Assembly (NCBI GenBank): GCA_963921825.1
Contig: OY997592.1
Span: forward strand, 62,888,336-62,952,335
Source: Erodium maritimum
Lineage: Eukaryota; Streptophyta; Magnoliopsida; Geraniales; Geraniaceae
Reading direction: 5' to 3'
Length of the DNA: 64,000 bases
The number at the start of each line of letters is the position of its first letter. Within the stretch, counting starts at the first letter, position 1. This document shows, piece by piece, positions 45,456 through 53,403 of the stretch. The translations under genes and the position numbers were made by a program. The notes under the pieces were generated by a model. That model was given only the letters and a program-made list of their open reading frames with translations. It was not told the DNA's origin and made no database searches.

Positions 45456-46130
45456 TTAGTGAATTTCTGATAGTAGTATCCATGATGACATTTTAGCATC
45501 CTTATGATCAACGAAATCTTGTGAGTCTCTGTATTTCATACATACGTCCTCAATTATCATGTTATGAAGAATGACGTAAGTATACATGATATCTATCGTG
45601 GTTCTTCTATACTGCACATGAGTTAGGCGAGTTATAATGTGCCAACAAGTTAGTAGAACTCTGATTGGTCTTTCCACATCCTTCCTCACCTTTGTAAGAT
45701 GTCGGGAAAACATTATATCCTTTATCGAAATGGACGACATCTATTTTAGCGAATTGACTATATTGAGGATAAATATCGTTAATTTAGCCTTCAATTGCTC
45801 GTATTCGTTCAGTTACATTGGTTTGGGTGAGAGAAAAAGAATTTGAATAACCATGAAGGGTTGTATGCTAGAGCCACAACTAGAGCCAGATGTATAGTTC
45901 ACCTTCTTTGTCTGGTTATGTCCGAACTTCGATCCGTAAGCCAAGGTAGAGCGTTGCAACTGTCCAAGAAAACACACGGGTAGCGTTTGTAAAACATGTC
46001 CAAGATAAAGGGAAGGAACGCAACCAACGATGATTTTGCTATGCATCCTGATTTCCCCAGCGTTGTTGTAGACCACCCATGTTCTATCAAAATAAGGTCA
46101 TGTCTACCGATCAGAGAGAGAATGTTGGCT
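45456..46130 (-). pseudogene. PIF/Harbinger transposase relic, C-terminal part
   Basis: Minus-strand codons at 45740-45456 give FSRHLTKVRKDVERPIRVLL, then TTIDIMYTYVILHNMIIEDV. This is the conserved end of Pong/PIF DDE transposases (RKDVERAFGVLQ..., IM.ACVILHNMIVED). Upstream pieces to about 46130 are in other frames. An end-like CCACAATGGAGAGGATG occurs at about 45182, similar to Tourist/Harbinger termini, but its partner was not found. Confidence 0.65.
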
Positions 46131-46811
46131 TTGACGAATAGGTTGTGATTGTCTCCTTTTGGTTTTTGACGACAAATTGTTCTAGATTTGAGATAAGGAG
46201 AATTGAGTCGTGACCAAAGATATCATGATCGTCAAAATTATGAAGTTGTAACACTATAAACTGTTTGATAGGATTTGAGTATAGGTTGGATTTTCTTTAT
46301 GATTTGTTGTTGATCGATTAGTAAATTTTGTATTGTATGTAAATTTGTAAGTTTTAAATCGTTTATAAATATATCTTTCATTCTTTGAAAAAACATCCCA
46401 ATTTAAATTAATTAGTGAGGAATTTAGGATAAGAGAAGAGAATTTAATAAAATAATAGACATAAGAAGATTCAAAGAGAGATTGATGATGTACATAAAAA
46501 TATAGGTTTAAAATTTCAAAACTAATTAAATATTTATTTTTAAGGTAAAATAATAATATTATAAATAAACGTTTGAAGACACTAACCCAAAAACGGTCAC
46601 AACAGAATCTGTAAATAATGATTAAACGGAAAGTAAATCAAACCGAAAGTCTAAATATCGTAGAACTAAAAGAACAATAAAACATACCATTAAAATCAAG
46701 ATTTTTTTTACAAGATATAATTACAATAATTGTTAGAATCACTGGTGTAATTTTTGAAAATTGAACACACGGACCTGGCTAATCCAGATGTAGAGACAGA
46801 TGGTGTGCAAT
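46131..46811. other. AT-rich, no gene recognised
   Basis: Mostly A/T with no open frame of note. May be decayed PIF element sequence continuing from the left. Confidence 0.5.
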
Positions 46812-46820
46812 TAAAATCAA

Positions 46821-47296
46821 GGGTTAAATATCGAAACTTACTCTTAAGTATTAGTCACGAACACTACACTACCCACGTTTTCAAAATGAACACTACACTA
46901 CCTTAAGTATCGGCCACGCGATTTTGTTAGTAAAAATGGACGGAAGTTTCCATTCCGTTAGTCATATGACCTCAAGTGTCATATAATGGATGGTAAAATG
47001 ACGTTTTTTGCCCTTAAGTATTTGACCTCTATACATTTTATAAAGCACAATAACGAGGGTACAATGATAATGTTTCTTATAAAATGTGTAGAGGTCATAT
47101 AATTTAGGGAAAACGTCATTTTACTATCCATTATATGACACTTGAGGTCATATGACTAACAGAATGGAAAATTTGGTCTATTTTTACTAACAAAATCGTG
47201 TGACCAATACTGAAGGTAGTGTAGTGTTTATTTTGAAAACATAGGTAGTGCAGTGTTCGTGACTAATAGATAAGAGTAAATTTCGATATTTAACCA
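46821..47296. mobile_element. Foldback Mutator-type MITE, 476 bp, 9-bp TSD
   Basis: It begins GGGTTAAATATCGAAA and ends with the inverse TTTCGATATTTAACC(A). It folds over almost its full length (AACACTACACTACC, TCATATGACCTCAAGTGTCA and AAAATGACGTTTT are all inverted in the right half). Flanks: TAAAATCAA at 46812-46820 and 47297-47305. No coding capacity. Confidence 0.92.
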
Positions 47297-47854
47297 TAAA
47301 ATCAAGGGTAAATTACAAATGCATACCCTTAAGTATGCACGTTTAACCGATGCACACTCTTAAGTTTAAAGTTAACCGATGCATACCCTGAAGTTTCATT
47401 TATTAACCCAGAACCCCTTCCGTCCATTTTTCCATCCAAAATCTGTTACTTTTTTCTGAATTACCCAAAATACCCTCAACTGTTACTCAAATTTACATTA
47501 TCTATCCTTCTAACCCTAAACCTAATTTATCTTTAAATAAATTTTATTCATTTTTTCTTAATTCTAAATACATGTTTTTAAATTTTCAAATTTTAATTTA
47601 AAAAAATATATAAATCAACAAAATGTTAACTTAACTAATTCTTATTACATTTATTTATTTCTAATTCTTTTTGTACAAATTATGTTAATTCATTATTTTT
47701 GTTCAAATTTAGTTAATGTTTACAAATAGTTTTTTTTTTTCATTTTCATTTTTATGCTTTTTTTTGTAATAGTTTTATATATTATCTTTATTTATTTATT
47801 ACAAAATCATTCTTATTCATTTATCTATTTTGACTTTTTTTATAAAAAATTATG

Positions 47855-48031
47855 TCATTCTACTATGGACTCGTCCTTGAGAAGGATCTTGTAGCAGTAA
47901 CAGCTCTTGAGGCCTTGCTGGTTCTGGTAGCAACTGTGAGCTGTGTTCTTCACCTGTTGGAAGTCCCATATCACACTGAACTTGCCCACCGTTGCAACCA
48001 GGTGCCGCTCTTGTTTGCCGTTCTCAGTAAC
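47855..48031 (-). pseudogene. Captured exon of a VID27-like (DEM/CYPRO4-type) gene
   Basis: On minus, after a good splice acceptor (CTTTTTCAG ending at 48032), 58 codons read [58 protein letters not shown], then TGA. This matches the C-terminal propeller region of plant VID27-related proteins ([22 protein letters not shown]). The frame is intact. The stop occurs earlier than in the family, where the protein goes on with (S/D)SRFM, so the capture ends there. The acceptor plus intron shows that genomic DNA, not cDNA, was taken. Confidence 0.85.
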
Positions 48032-48364
48032 CTGAAAAAGGAATCAAAACATCGAATTTCATACAAACCCAAAACTTGAATTGTTTAGAAATGACCTCGA
48101 GGCGCGATACAAATAGAAATTCCTTCACATACAAGTCGGAAACCGGTAAAAATGCAATTTTTCCTGCTGCCAGTCAAGCCACGACTATCCCAAAGTTCAG
48201 AACCATATTTTGTTCCAAAAAAATCACACCCAGATCTACAAATCTGTTCCAACCCAGATTTACAAAAAATCACACTCAGATCAAAAAATCACACCCAAAT
48301 CTCGAAATAGAAAAGCAAAAAAAAAGAGGATGAGAAGAAAAATCAAATATGCAAGAAATCAGAT

Positions 48365-48623
48365 TTAAAAGAGAGAGGGATAGGGTTCAGGGAAGACGAC
48401 GAACACGCCCCTCCTTCCTCCCTCACCACCCATCCCTCCTCCTTCGCTGCCCCTTCTCCGATGGGCCCTCCATCTCCGGTTCCGGCGAGCTCTGATGAGA
48501 GGGAGGCCGCCTGAACAATCCCAGCCCTCTCTCCCCTCGCCGGCGCTCTCTCTCCCCTCGCCGGCCCTCTCTCCCCTCGCCGACGCTCTCTCTCCCCTCA
48601 CTGCCCTCTCTTCCTTCATCCAT
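48365..48623 (-). other. GC-rich captured block of unknown origin in the Pack-MULE
   Basis: On minus an open frame begins at 48623 with ATGGATGAAGG and encodes Glu/Gly/Arg-rich repeats (GEGREGRRGERERRRGERG), then HQSSPEPEMEGPSEKGQRR. DNA repeats of about 15-20 bp (CTCTCCCCTCGCCG) cause the low complexity. Base composition stands out sharply from the AT-rich element. It is upstream of, and on the same strand as, the VID27 exon. It could be the first exon or leader of another host gene. Confidence 0.5.
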
Positions 48624-48886
48624 GTCCTCTGGTTAGGCGGCTGAGATAAGAAACAATAGGGATAGATATGATGAAATAGGGTTAGGTTATAAATTTTTTT
48701 TTAAGTAAATAAAAATAATTTGTTAAAATGATCACCGAGGGCAGTTTGGGTATTTTGGAAAAATAAACAGTAAACAGACAGAGGTCACTGACGGAAGGGG
48801 TTCTGAATTAATAAATGAAAATTCAGAATATACATCGGTTAATTTTAAATTTAAGGGTATGTATTTGTAATTTACCCTAAAATCAA

Positions 48887-51252: not shown

Positions 51253-51408
51253 CAAGCTTCAGAGGGTTAACCTGAAAAGAAAAAATTCCGTTCCGATTTT
51301 CCAGCTCTAAAATCGGTAGGATTCAAAACTTCGTCTCCGTTTTCCCCCCTTTCTTTCAACCTCCAGACCCACTTCAGCAAGCTTCAGAGGGTTAACCTGA
51401 AAAGAAAA
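51253..51408 (+). repeat. 31-bp direct repeat in the PPR gene leader
   Basis: CAAGCTTCAGAGGGTTAACC plus the following TGAAAAGAAAA occur at 51253-51283 and, 125 bp later, at 51378-51408 without change. The copies sit in the predicted 5' leader. Confidence 0.95.
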
Positions 51409-51486
51409 GATACACCAGAAGTTGCTACTGGCAAGCGAGTTTCGCGGCGAGGAATTGAGACCCGCAAGAGGAGGAGAGTCACGCTC

Positions 51487-53403
51487 ATGGCTGGACCTCC
51501 CTCCGCCTCCCTCCGCCTCTCACCCATTGCCCGTTTCATCGTCGACGCCATCGTCAAGAACCGCCACCGCTGGGGCGCTCCGGTCGTCTCCGAGCTCAAG
51601 AAGCTCCGCCGTGTCACCCCCAACCTCGTCACCGAGATCCTCAAGGTCGAGCTCGACCCTAAAGTCGCCTCCAAGCTCTTTCATTGGGCAAGTAAGCAAA
51701 AGGGTTTCTATCACAATTACGCTACCTACAATGCTCTCATGTATTGCCTGAATCGTAACAGTCGGTTCCGGGAGGCCGATCAGGTCCTTGAGCTGATGGC
51801 TTCTCAGGGAAAGCCGCCCAGTGAGAAGCAGTTCGAGATTTTGATTAGAATGCACTCTGATGCCAGTAGGGGTCTCAGAGTGTTCTATGTATACGAGAAA
51901 ATGAAGAAATTCGGGGTCAAACCTGGAGTATCTCTGTACAATAGGATCATGGATGCTCTTGTTAAAACTGATCATTTGGACTTAGCACTATCTGTTTACA
52001 GGGATTTCCAGGGCGAGAAACTGGTGGAAGGGAGTGTTACTTTCATGATCCTGATAAGGGGTTTGTGTAGAGCTGGGAGAATTGAGGAAATGTTGCAACT
52101 TTTGGGGCAAATGAGGTCGAATTTGTGTAAACCAGATGTGTTTGCCTACTCTTCGATTTTTCGAGGGATGATCAACAAAGGGGATATAGATGGGTGTTTA
52201 ATGGTGTGGGAGGAAATGAAGAGGGATAGGGTTGAGCCTGATGTCATGGCTTATGTGAATGTGATTACCGGGTTGTGCCGAGGGGAGAGAGTTCATAAGG
52301 CTTTTGAGCTTTTCAAGGAGATGAAGAAGAAAGGGTATTTGATTGATAGGTCAGTTTATTGTGTGTTGGTAGATGCATTTGTGGCGGAAGGGAAGATTGA
52401 GGTTGCTTGTGATCTGTTGAAGGATTTAGTCAATTCAGGATGCCGTGCAAATTTGAGGATTTACAATTCGCTTATCTGTGGTCTGTGTAATGGAAACCGT
52501 GTAGATGATGCTTATAAATTGCTTCAGGTAGCAGTTAAGGAAGGTCTAAAACCTGGCTCTGAGACAGTGAACCCTTTGTTGGTGGCTTATTCGGAGTTGA
52601 GAAGATCGGATGACTTTCTGAAGTTGCTCAAGCAAATGGAGGGACTGGGATTTCCTATTGTTAATGGTCTCAATAAGTTCTTCTCCTCTATGGTGAGTAA
52701 GGAGGAGAGAATCACGGTAGCTTTAGAAGTTTTCGAGCAGTTGAAGGGAAAAGGTTATTGTAGAATTTCACACTACAATATTCTGATGGAAGCTGTACAT
52801 AGAATTGGGGAGCTGAAAAAGGCATTAGAGTTCTTTGATGATCTAAACAGATCAGAAATGGAACCTGACGCCTGTACATACAATACTGCAATTCAATGTT
52901 TTATTGAGGATGGCAGAATCCAAGAGGCATGTTCTTGCTATAATAAGATACTGGAGAAGTCTTGGACACCTTCTGTGGCTGCCTACAGTGCTCTTGCTGG
53001 AGGGCTATCCAGGATCGGAGAGACTGATGCAGCTATGATGCTTGTGCGTGAATGCCTAGCCACTGTTGAAAACGGTCCCATGGAGTTCAAATACACACTT
53101 ACCGTTCTACATGATTGTAAATCCTGTAATGCTGAGAAGGTGATTGGTGTGCTCGATGAAATGGTGCAACAAGGTTGTCCTCCTAATGATGTTATATATT
53201 CTGCTGTAATATGTGGCATGTGTAAGCACGGAACACTGGATGAGGCAAATAAGGTATTTTTACATTTGTGGGATTCCAAACTGATAACAGAAGCCAAATG
53301 GATCCTGTATGATGAAATACTAAGCGATCACATGGAAAACAAGACAGAAAGCTTGGAACAGTCAGGATCAAAGGTGTTTGGTCTCAAATCTAGGCTGAAA
53401 TGA
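51487..53403 (+). CDS. P-class pentatricopeptide repeat protein
   Basis: Intronless, 638 aa, as most plant PPR genes are. PPR proteins bind organellar RNA one base per repeat and assist processing, stability or translation. The N-terminus is MAGPPSASLRLSPIARFIVD. A pre-repeat block SKLFHWASKQKGFYHNYATY leads into about a dozen 35-residue motifs, for example VTFMILIRGLCRAGRIEEML, VMAYVNVITGLCRGERVHKA, RIYNSLICGLCNGNRVDDAY, CTYNTAIQCFIEDGRIQEAC and VIYSAVICGMCKHGTLDEAN. There is no E, DYW or SMR domain. The overall pattern resembles the protein annotated as At4g20740 in Arabidopsis (recognition from memory, moderate). Organelle targeting is not obvious from the first 30 residues. The leader includes a 31-bp direct repeat. 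Confidence 0.95.
   Translation: MAGPPSASLRLSPIARFIVDAIVKNRHRWGAPVVSELKKLRRVTPNLVTEILKVELDPKVASKLFHWASKQKGFYHNYATYNALMYCLNRNSRFREADQVLELMASQGKPPSEKQFEILIRMHSDASRGLRVFYVYEKMKKFGVKPGVSLYNRIMDALVKTDHLDLALSVYRDFQGEKLVEGSVTFMILIRGLCRAGRIEEMLQLLGQMRSNLCKPDVFAYSSIFRGMINKGDIDGCLMVWEEMKRDRVEPDVMAYVNVITGLCRGERVHKAFELFKEMKKKGYLIDRSVYCVLVDAFVAEGKIEVACDLLKDLVNSGCRANLRIYNSLICGLCNGNRVDDAYKLLQVAVKEGLKPGSETVNPLLVAYSELRRSDDFLKLLKQMEGLGFPIVNGLNKFFSSMVSKEERITVALEVFEQLKGKGYCRISHYNILMEAVHRIGELKKALEFFDDLNRSEMEPDACTYNTAIQCFIEDGRIQEACSCYNKILEKSWTPSVAAYSALAGGLSRIGETDAAMMLVRECLATVENGPMEFKYTLTVLHDCKSCNAEKVIGVLDEMVQQGCPPNDVIYSAVICGMCKHGTLDEANKVFLHLWDSKLITEAKWILYDEILSDHMENKTESLEQSGSKVFGLKSRLK

Follow-up and report, generated by a model that had tools for sequence, protein, structure and literature searches.

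How do two different transposable elements come to stand back to back with one and the same 9-bp sequence, TAAAATCAA, outside and between them? The question is raised by a locus in Erodium maritimum, within the window C5:62888336-62952335 (the whole stretch of 64,000 nucleotides that was analysed); genome-wide searches covered the 763-Mb genome of this species. We consider it about 80% probable that two non-autonomous Mutator-like elements inserted serially into one AT-rich 9-mer, via target preference. A sequence-only reading had described a 476-bp foldback element and a 1572-bp element with the middle 9-mer in common, and had named serial insertion at one 9-bp site as the simplest history; the coordinates proved exact, with the 9-mers on the + strand (Table 1), and the history was upheld, the boundaries being fixed by the TSDs of relatives.

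Boundaries and duplications at the locus

Table 1 Features of the two-element locus. Positions are those of the window; strand is given as +, - or none (.).
Feature	Position	Strand	Remarks
Fourth TAAAATCAA	46691..46699	+	121 bp upstream of TSD copy 1
TSD copy 1, TAAAATCAA	46812..46820	+	exact match
MITE, 476-bp foldback, Mutator-like	46821..47296	.	TIR GGGTTAAATATCGAAA
TSD copy 2, TAAAATCAA	47297..47305	+	common to both elements
Long-TIR Mutator-like element, 1572 bp	47306..48877	.	TIR GGGTAAATTACAAATGCATA
Centre of the long element	47864..48217	.	no counterpart in five aligned relatives, short pieces near its right edge excepted
55-aa open stretch in the centre	47864..48028	-	weak match to VID27 C-terminal WD40-like domain
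TSD copy 3, TAAAATCAA	48878..48886	+	exact match

The 9-mer had been reported to occur three times; the three copies bordering the elements are indeed present, but the window holds five in total, with two extra copies at 46691 and 59333. Shuffling the window gives an expectation of 2.5 copies, with five attained in 8 of 100 shuffles; at the shuffle rate, at least three copies within 2075 bp have a probability of about 8e-5 (a post hoc figure). The status of the 9-mer as a TSD is better tested by the boundaries of relatives, because these are independent of its copy count.

For the MITE, 34 other family loci were scored, the better copy being taken at two loci with two copies, with a tolerance of up to 3 bp at each boundary. 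A TSD matching in at least eight of nine positions was found at 30 loci (25 perfect 9-bp repeats and five at 8/9); four loci, L037, L038, L046 and L048, fell below this. The duplications of these relatives are 9 bp long, differ in sequence from TAAAATCAA and end at the equivalent element boundaries. All five relatives of the long element carry a perfect 9-bp TSD with no boundary shift, again of other sequence. Because relatives carry 9-bp duplications of other sequence, TAAAATCAA is read as the TSD of each element; the identical 9-mer thus stands outside and between two elements whose boundaries are fixed by their relatives.

Several MITE-family copies depart from this pattern. Two have no direct 9-bp TSD, L037 (C1:1777867-1778957) and L046 (C7:3892413-3893497); read outwards from the TIR ends, their flanks are mutual inverted copies (88 matching bases in the first 100 and about 51 in the first 53, respectively), as though one flank had been copied by turning round at the foldback. 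L038 (C7:5129149-5130227) has lost the CCC at one end, and in place of a 9-bp duplication it is bordered by imperfect direct repeats of 23 bp that agree, by eye, at 20 positions. At L020 and L033, paired copies stand 217 and 65 bp apart, with no abutting common TSD.

The arms of the window MITE (46822-47007 and 47110-47295; 186 bp) are 91% complementary, and the inverted ends of the long element form two aligned pieces, 85% complementary. MULEs are recognised by a TSD of 8-11 bp, mostly 9 bp, and by long terminal inverted repeats; non-autonomous members are mobilised by a mudrA-type transposase from a relative with the same TIR. Both families have the 9-bp TSD and the long TIRs, a structure that bears out the Mutator-type assignment made from the letters alone and suggests that the transposase of both elements was of Mutator type. 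The TIRs of the two families can be aligned across their first 31 bases, a score equalled by 2 of 300 shuffles; the earlier remark that the ends are alike in their first bases is thereby supported, and the TIRs look related. One base of the ends quoted earlier was incorrect: the final base of the window MITE is A, not C (TTTAACCA), a mutation that recurs identically in copy L034.

The long element is 90-94% identical to its relatives over its left 558 bp (over the left 505 bp in the comparison with L018) and 75-81% identical over its right part. Of 137 aligned bases in its own two ends, 27 are mismatched; the 173-bp ends of the five relatives differ by 0.6-3.5%. The element looks like a chimera of two subfamilies, with a right part and centre that differ from the family. 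The centre lacks a counterpart in the relatives except for short pieces near its right edge, and its 55-aa open stretch matches VID27 weakly (E 0.0057; 16.2 bits, the Pfam cut-off being 22.1). This stretch is probably a captured gene piece, and the element is likely to be a Pack-MULE, as judged from this weak match below the cut-off.

Two separate insertion events are the favoured history. Transposases would have cut AT-rich DNA with a 9-bp stagger and the elements would have been inserted successively: the first insertion would have turned one TAAAATCAA into two, and an ordinary staggered cut by the second element across one of these copies would have turned two into three. The TSD would have been struck as a proven good 9-mer target, the existing end not being recognised. 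Exact reuse counts as one coincidence and not several, because it is automatic once the spacing is exactly 9 bp. Joint arrival of the pair as one composite element would fit the direct adjacency and the outward-facing TIRs. The outer 9-mers would in that case represent a fresh duplication, expected to be unlike the middle one; all three are in fact identical, and the search for ends at 9 bp gave no second copy of this pair, so that this origin has a negligible probability.

The order of the insertions was sought in divergence, and none was discernible. The window MITE differs from the majority of 30 other copies at 25 of 475 positions (5.3%; those copies, 1.1-3.4%), and the left 558 bp of the long element from the majority of its five relatives at 30 of 555 (5.4%; relatives, 0.4-1.8%); these divergences are not ages, since resemblance to the window copy governed the choice of relatives, and a separate subfamily may be represented by the long copy. 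A query of the joined flanks, as an empty site, matched this locus alone in this genome.

The fourth TAAAATCAA was considered as the mark of a third element and set aside, no TIR being seen beside the 9-mer; it is probably there by chance. A 12-mer, ATTAAAATCAAG, occurs twice just upstream of the pair (46689-46700 and 46810-46821; 121 bp apart), and no TIR was seen between these two copies. Elsewhere in the window, an ORF for a PPR protein lies at 51352-53400, and a Plant_tran/DDE_Tnp_4 transposase remnant, which we take to be of PIF/Harbinger type, at 45456-45740 (- strand).

Target preference and the expected rate of reuse

GC content is 1-22% at the nine target positions and about 30% in the sequence beyond them (79 distinct flanks, among which both ends of one copy may be counted). 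Recurrence of targets was measured on the first 100 MITE ends listed, all on C1, which gave 87 insertions, taken as independent, after second ends of one copy had been dropped. A common 9-mer, in either of two orientations, was found in 11 of 3741 pairs, three of the 11 forming one trio and segmental duplicates possibly being included. Sharing amounts to 1.5e-3 per comparison, about 160 times the 9.2e-6 predicted by an assumed base composition (66% AT). The strong site preference proposed earlier therefore holds for AT-rich 9-mers of a certain shape, and neither for this 9-mer specifically nor for a junction. A MITE at an unrelated locus (C4:19202392; L031) likewise has TAAAATCAA as its TSD.

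A position matrix rates an existing TSD at about 32 times, and TAAAATCAA at about 54 times, the attraction of the average window position; the mean was measured on the same 87 insertions from which the target matrix was built. For 880 MITE ends, the 9-mer preference alone predicts 0.37 reuses with 10,000 later insertions and 1.1 with 30,000; uniform insertion predicts 0.01 and 0.03, respectively. For scale, 12,900 MULEs are given for maize and more than 30,000 for rice (PMC3903597). The bases flanking the TSD prefer A/T, and an abutting CCC/GGG, as left by an element already in place, should cut attraction about six-fold; with this penalty the expectation falls to 0.06 (10,000 insertions) or 0.19 (30,000 insertions), below what was observed, namely C1:148015032 (exact end, gap of 9 bp, degraded) and the window (end not exact). 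Some extra attraction may exist, because the penalised expectation is lower than the observed number. For the 9-mer preference to account for one or two reuses, insertions would have to number in the tens of thousands; chance together with target preference, to which we attribute the reuse of the target, is an adequate explanation and not a generous one.

Neighbouring elements elsewhere in the genome

The MITE ends on which these expectations are based were counted as exact 13-mers (880 genome-wide; 15 in a reversed control). Places with a MITE end, 9 bp and a long-element start were searched for genome-wide with up to three mismatches; three were found, against 21 in the reversed control. Each was examined singly, because a count exceeded by its control is uninformative, and all three look like real neighbours: the window, C8:50164229-50166994 and C1:148015032.

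The place on C8 is a second clear case of a shared TSD, formed by other elements in the order AAAATATTA, a 2336-bp element (GGGTTAAATATA ends), TAAATATTA, a 403-bp element (GGGTAAATTA ends) and TAAATATTA. A third element there (GGGTTATTTATG, 13 bp on) was considered and not accepted, its far end not having been found; beside a further AAAATATTA at this place no TIR was present. At C1:148015032, a MITE with TSD TAATAAAAA is followed directly by a degraded 248-bp element. At its start this element is similar to the MITE TIR (none of 300 shuffles scored as high), its two ends match each other weakly (3 of 300 scored as high), and beyond its far end lies TAAAAAAAT, like the TSD in 7 of 9 positions.

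The C8 arrangement bears on the origin of the pair in the window. Insertions at two separate TAAAATCAA sites might have been joined by deletion or unequal exchange between the 9-mers, given that TAAAATCAA is not rare, with five copies in the window, and serves as a TSD elsewhere. Such a history demands two independent insertions at the same 9-mer plus recombination over 9 bp, and the equivalent arrangement on C8 involves another 9-mer; we regard it as very unlikely, and serial insertion into one 9-mer as the better account.

With exact MITE ends followed within 0-30 bp by a long-element start, five places were found (spacings 26, 3, 29, 13 and 9), of which only that at spacing 9, on C8, is a shared-TSD pair; the window is absent from this search because its MITE end is mutated. 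Searches with exact 8-mer or 10-mer ends, which mutated ends escape, gave no MITE-MITE pair at 9 bp (three places, at spacings 6, 16 and 19) and no long-long pair genome-wide. The 30 other MITE copies with a good TSD all lack an abutting GGG/CCC, and when about 300 bp on either side of them was scanned for a third copy of the TSD, one case was found (control, 0.81). The genome check proposed earlier, for many further back-to-back pairs of this kind, thus yielded one clear pair (C8) and one degraded pair (C1:148015032), and not many.

A GGGT start up to 30 bp past an exact end was also scored (one nested double count in each set): exact MITE ends gave 33 matches and exact ends of the long-element type 60, with one in each at spacing 9. 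The latter match, L071, has no convincing inverted partner and is taken as chance. Of two other end types, one gave two matches, both at spacing 9 (the C8 place and C2:66288308), and the other 19; neither gave a new case at spacing 13. C2:66288308 has no convincing inverted partner and no second element, and is likewise taken as chance. Recognition of a TIR/TSD junction, as suggested by the sequence-only reading, is not supported: a single GGGT stands at the shared-TSD spacing among 880 exact MITE ends, special recognition is unneeded, and the genome-wide counts give it no backing. A weak effect of this kind may exist.

A GGGT start 13 bp beyond element ends is in excess (loci including L063, L066, L012, L062 and L013). 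This spacing takes 13 of the 93 GGGT matches, with a background of 4.06 per gap (gaps of at least 13; P 3e-4, or 0.006 after multiplying by 18 gaps, the excess having been noticed post hoc). An inverted partner is present at three of the 13 loci. At L063 and L066, the second element has a TSD that occupies the final nine bases of the 13-bp gap (8/9 and 7/9, respectively, by eye) and overlaps the first TSD by 5 bp; at L012, the partner is inverted and the TSD unclear. L062 and the C8 place have a similar TIR-like start at spacing 13, the far end not having been found, and the remaining eight loci show no convincing inverted partner within the about 1.1 kb searched downstream. The excess is unexplained and post hoc.

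From such observations one might propose that related ends already in place attract the transposase complex, with insertion at a spacing of 9 or 13 bp; the second insertion would then be guided either by protein bound to the TIR of the earlier element or by the GGG/CCC end as such. The three real-looking neighbours at 9 bp, the excess at spacing 13 and the overlapping TSDs of L063 and L066 speak for this. Its absolute rate would be tiny (1 of 880 exact MITE ends), MITE-MITE and long-long pairs with exact ends are lacking, GGG/CCC abuts the TSD in none of the 30 other MITE copies, and the reversed control exceeds the three-mismatch count; the excess is post hoc, and two later searches added no case to it. 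On balance we hold guidance by existing ends to be unlikely at this locus, and guidance of plant Mutator-like complexes in general by related ends at fixed phases (the adjoining 9 bp, or a site shifted outwards by 4 bp, where the new TSD would overlap the old one by 5 bp) to be quite unlikely. If it were true, ordered trains of different elements would accumulate at one site; if the spacing-13 excess held genome-wide, end-guided target choice of Mutator type would become testable.

Comparison with known systems

In the literature searched, no report on exactly this pair of families was found. Serial insertion through target preference, the reading preferred here, makes the locus a clean example of transposons aligning in series without nesting, and provides measured numbers for how far plain 9-mer preference can explain such series.

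That a TSD permits later insertion at the same target, giving tandem dimers, has been described by McGurk and Barbash (as reviewed in PMC12628747), and insertion site preference is named there as the major cause of transposon dimers (PMC12628747). As in the Drosophila dimers, the elements stand in series through double insertion into a TSD; unlike those dimers, which consist of elements of the same type (PMC12628747), the pair described here comprises two different, related-looking Mutator-like families. SaTar MULE arrays of guayule and rice likewise hold different families in series, un-nested, through target preference; they lie in microsatellites, often without clean TSDs (PMC5907723), whereas here exact 9-mers stand outside microsatellites. 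TSDs in guayule are 10 bp long, and SaTar members in ordinary sequence reportedly form no arrays (PMC5907723).

Maize Mu shares the 9-bp TSD and has a weak, dyad-symmetric target consensus (PMC545602, PMC2774946), and identical insertion sites have been recovered from independent lines (PMC545602). Its TSD is G/C-biased with CCT-(TSD)-AGG flanks (PMC545602) and its weak consensus has 50% GC (PMC2774946), in contrast to the AT-rich target and nearest flanks found here. MuTAnT of Medicago is also Mutator-like, with 9-bp TSDs in AT sequence (PMC4486113); all but 14 of its 218 copies lie in perfect TA microsatellites (PMC4486113), sites unlike that of the present pair. Double insertion via a TSD is, beside these systems, a known, rare and fairly ordinary event and no new targeting system.
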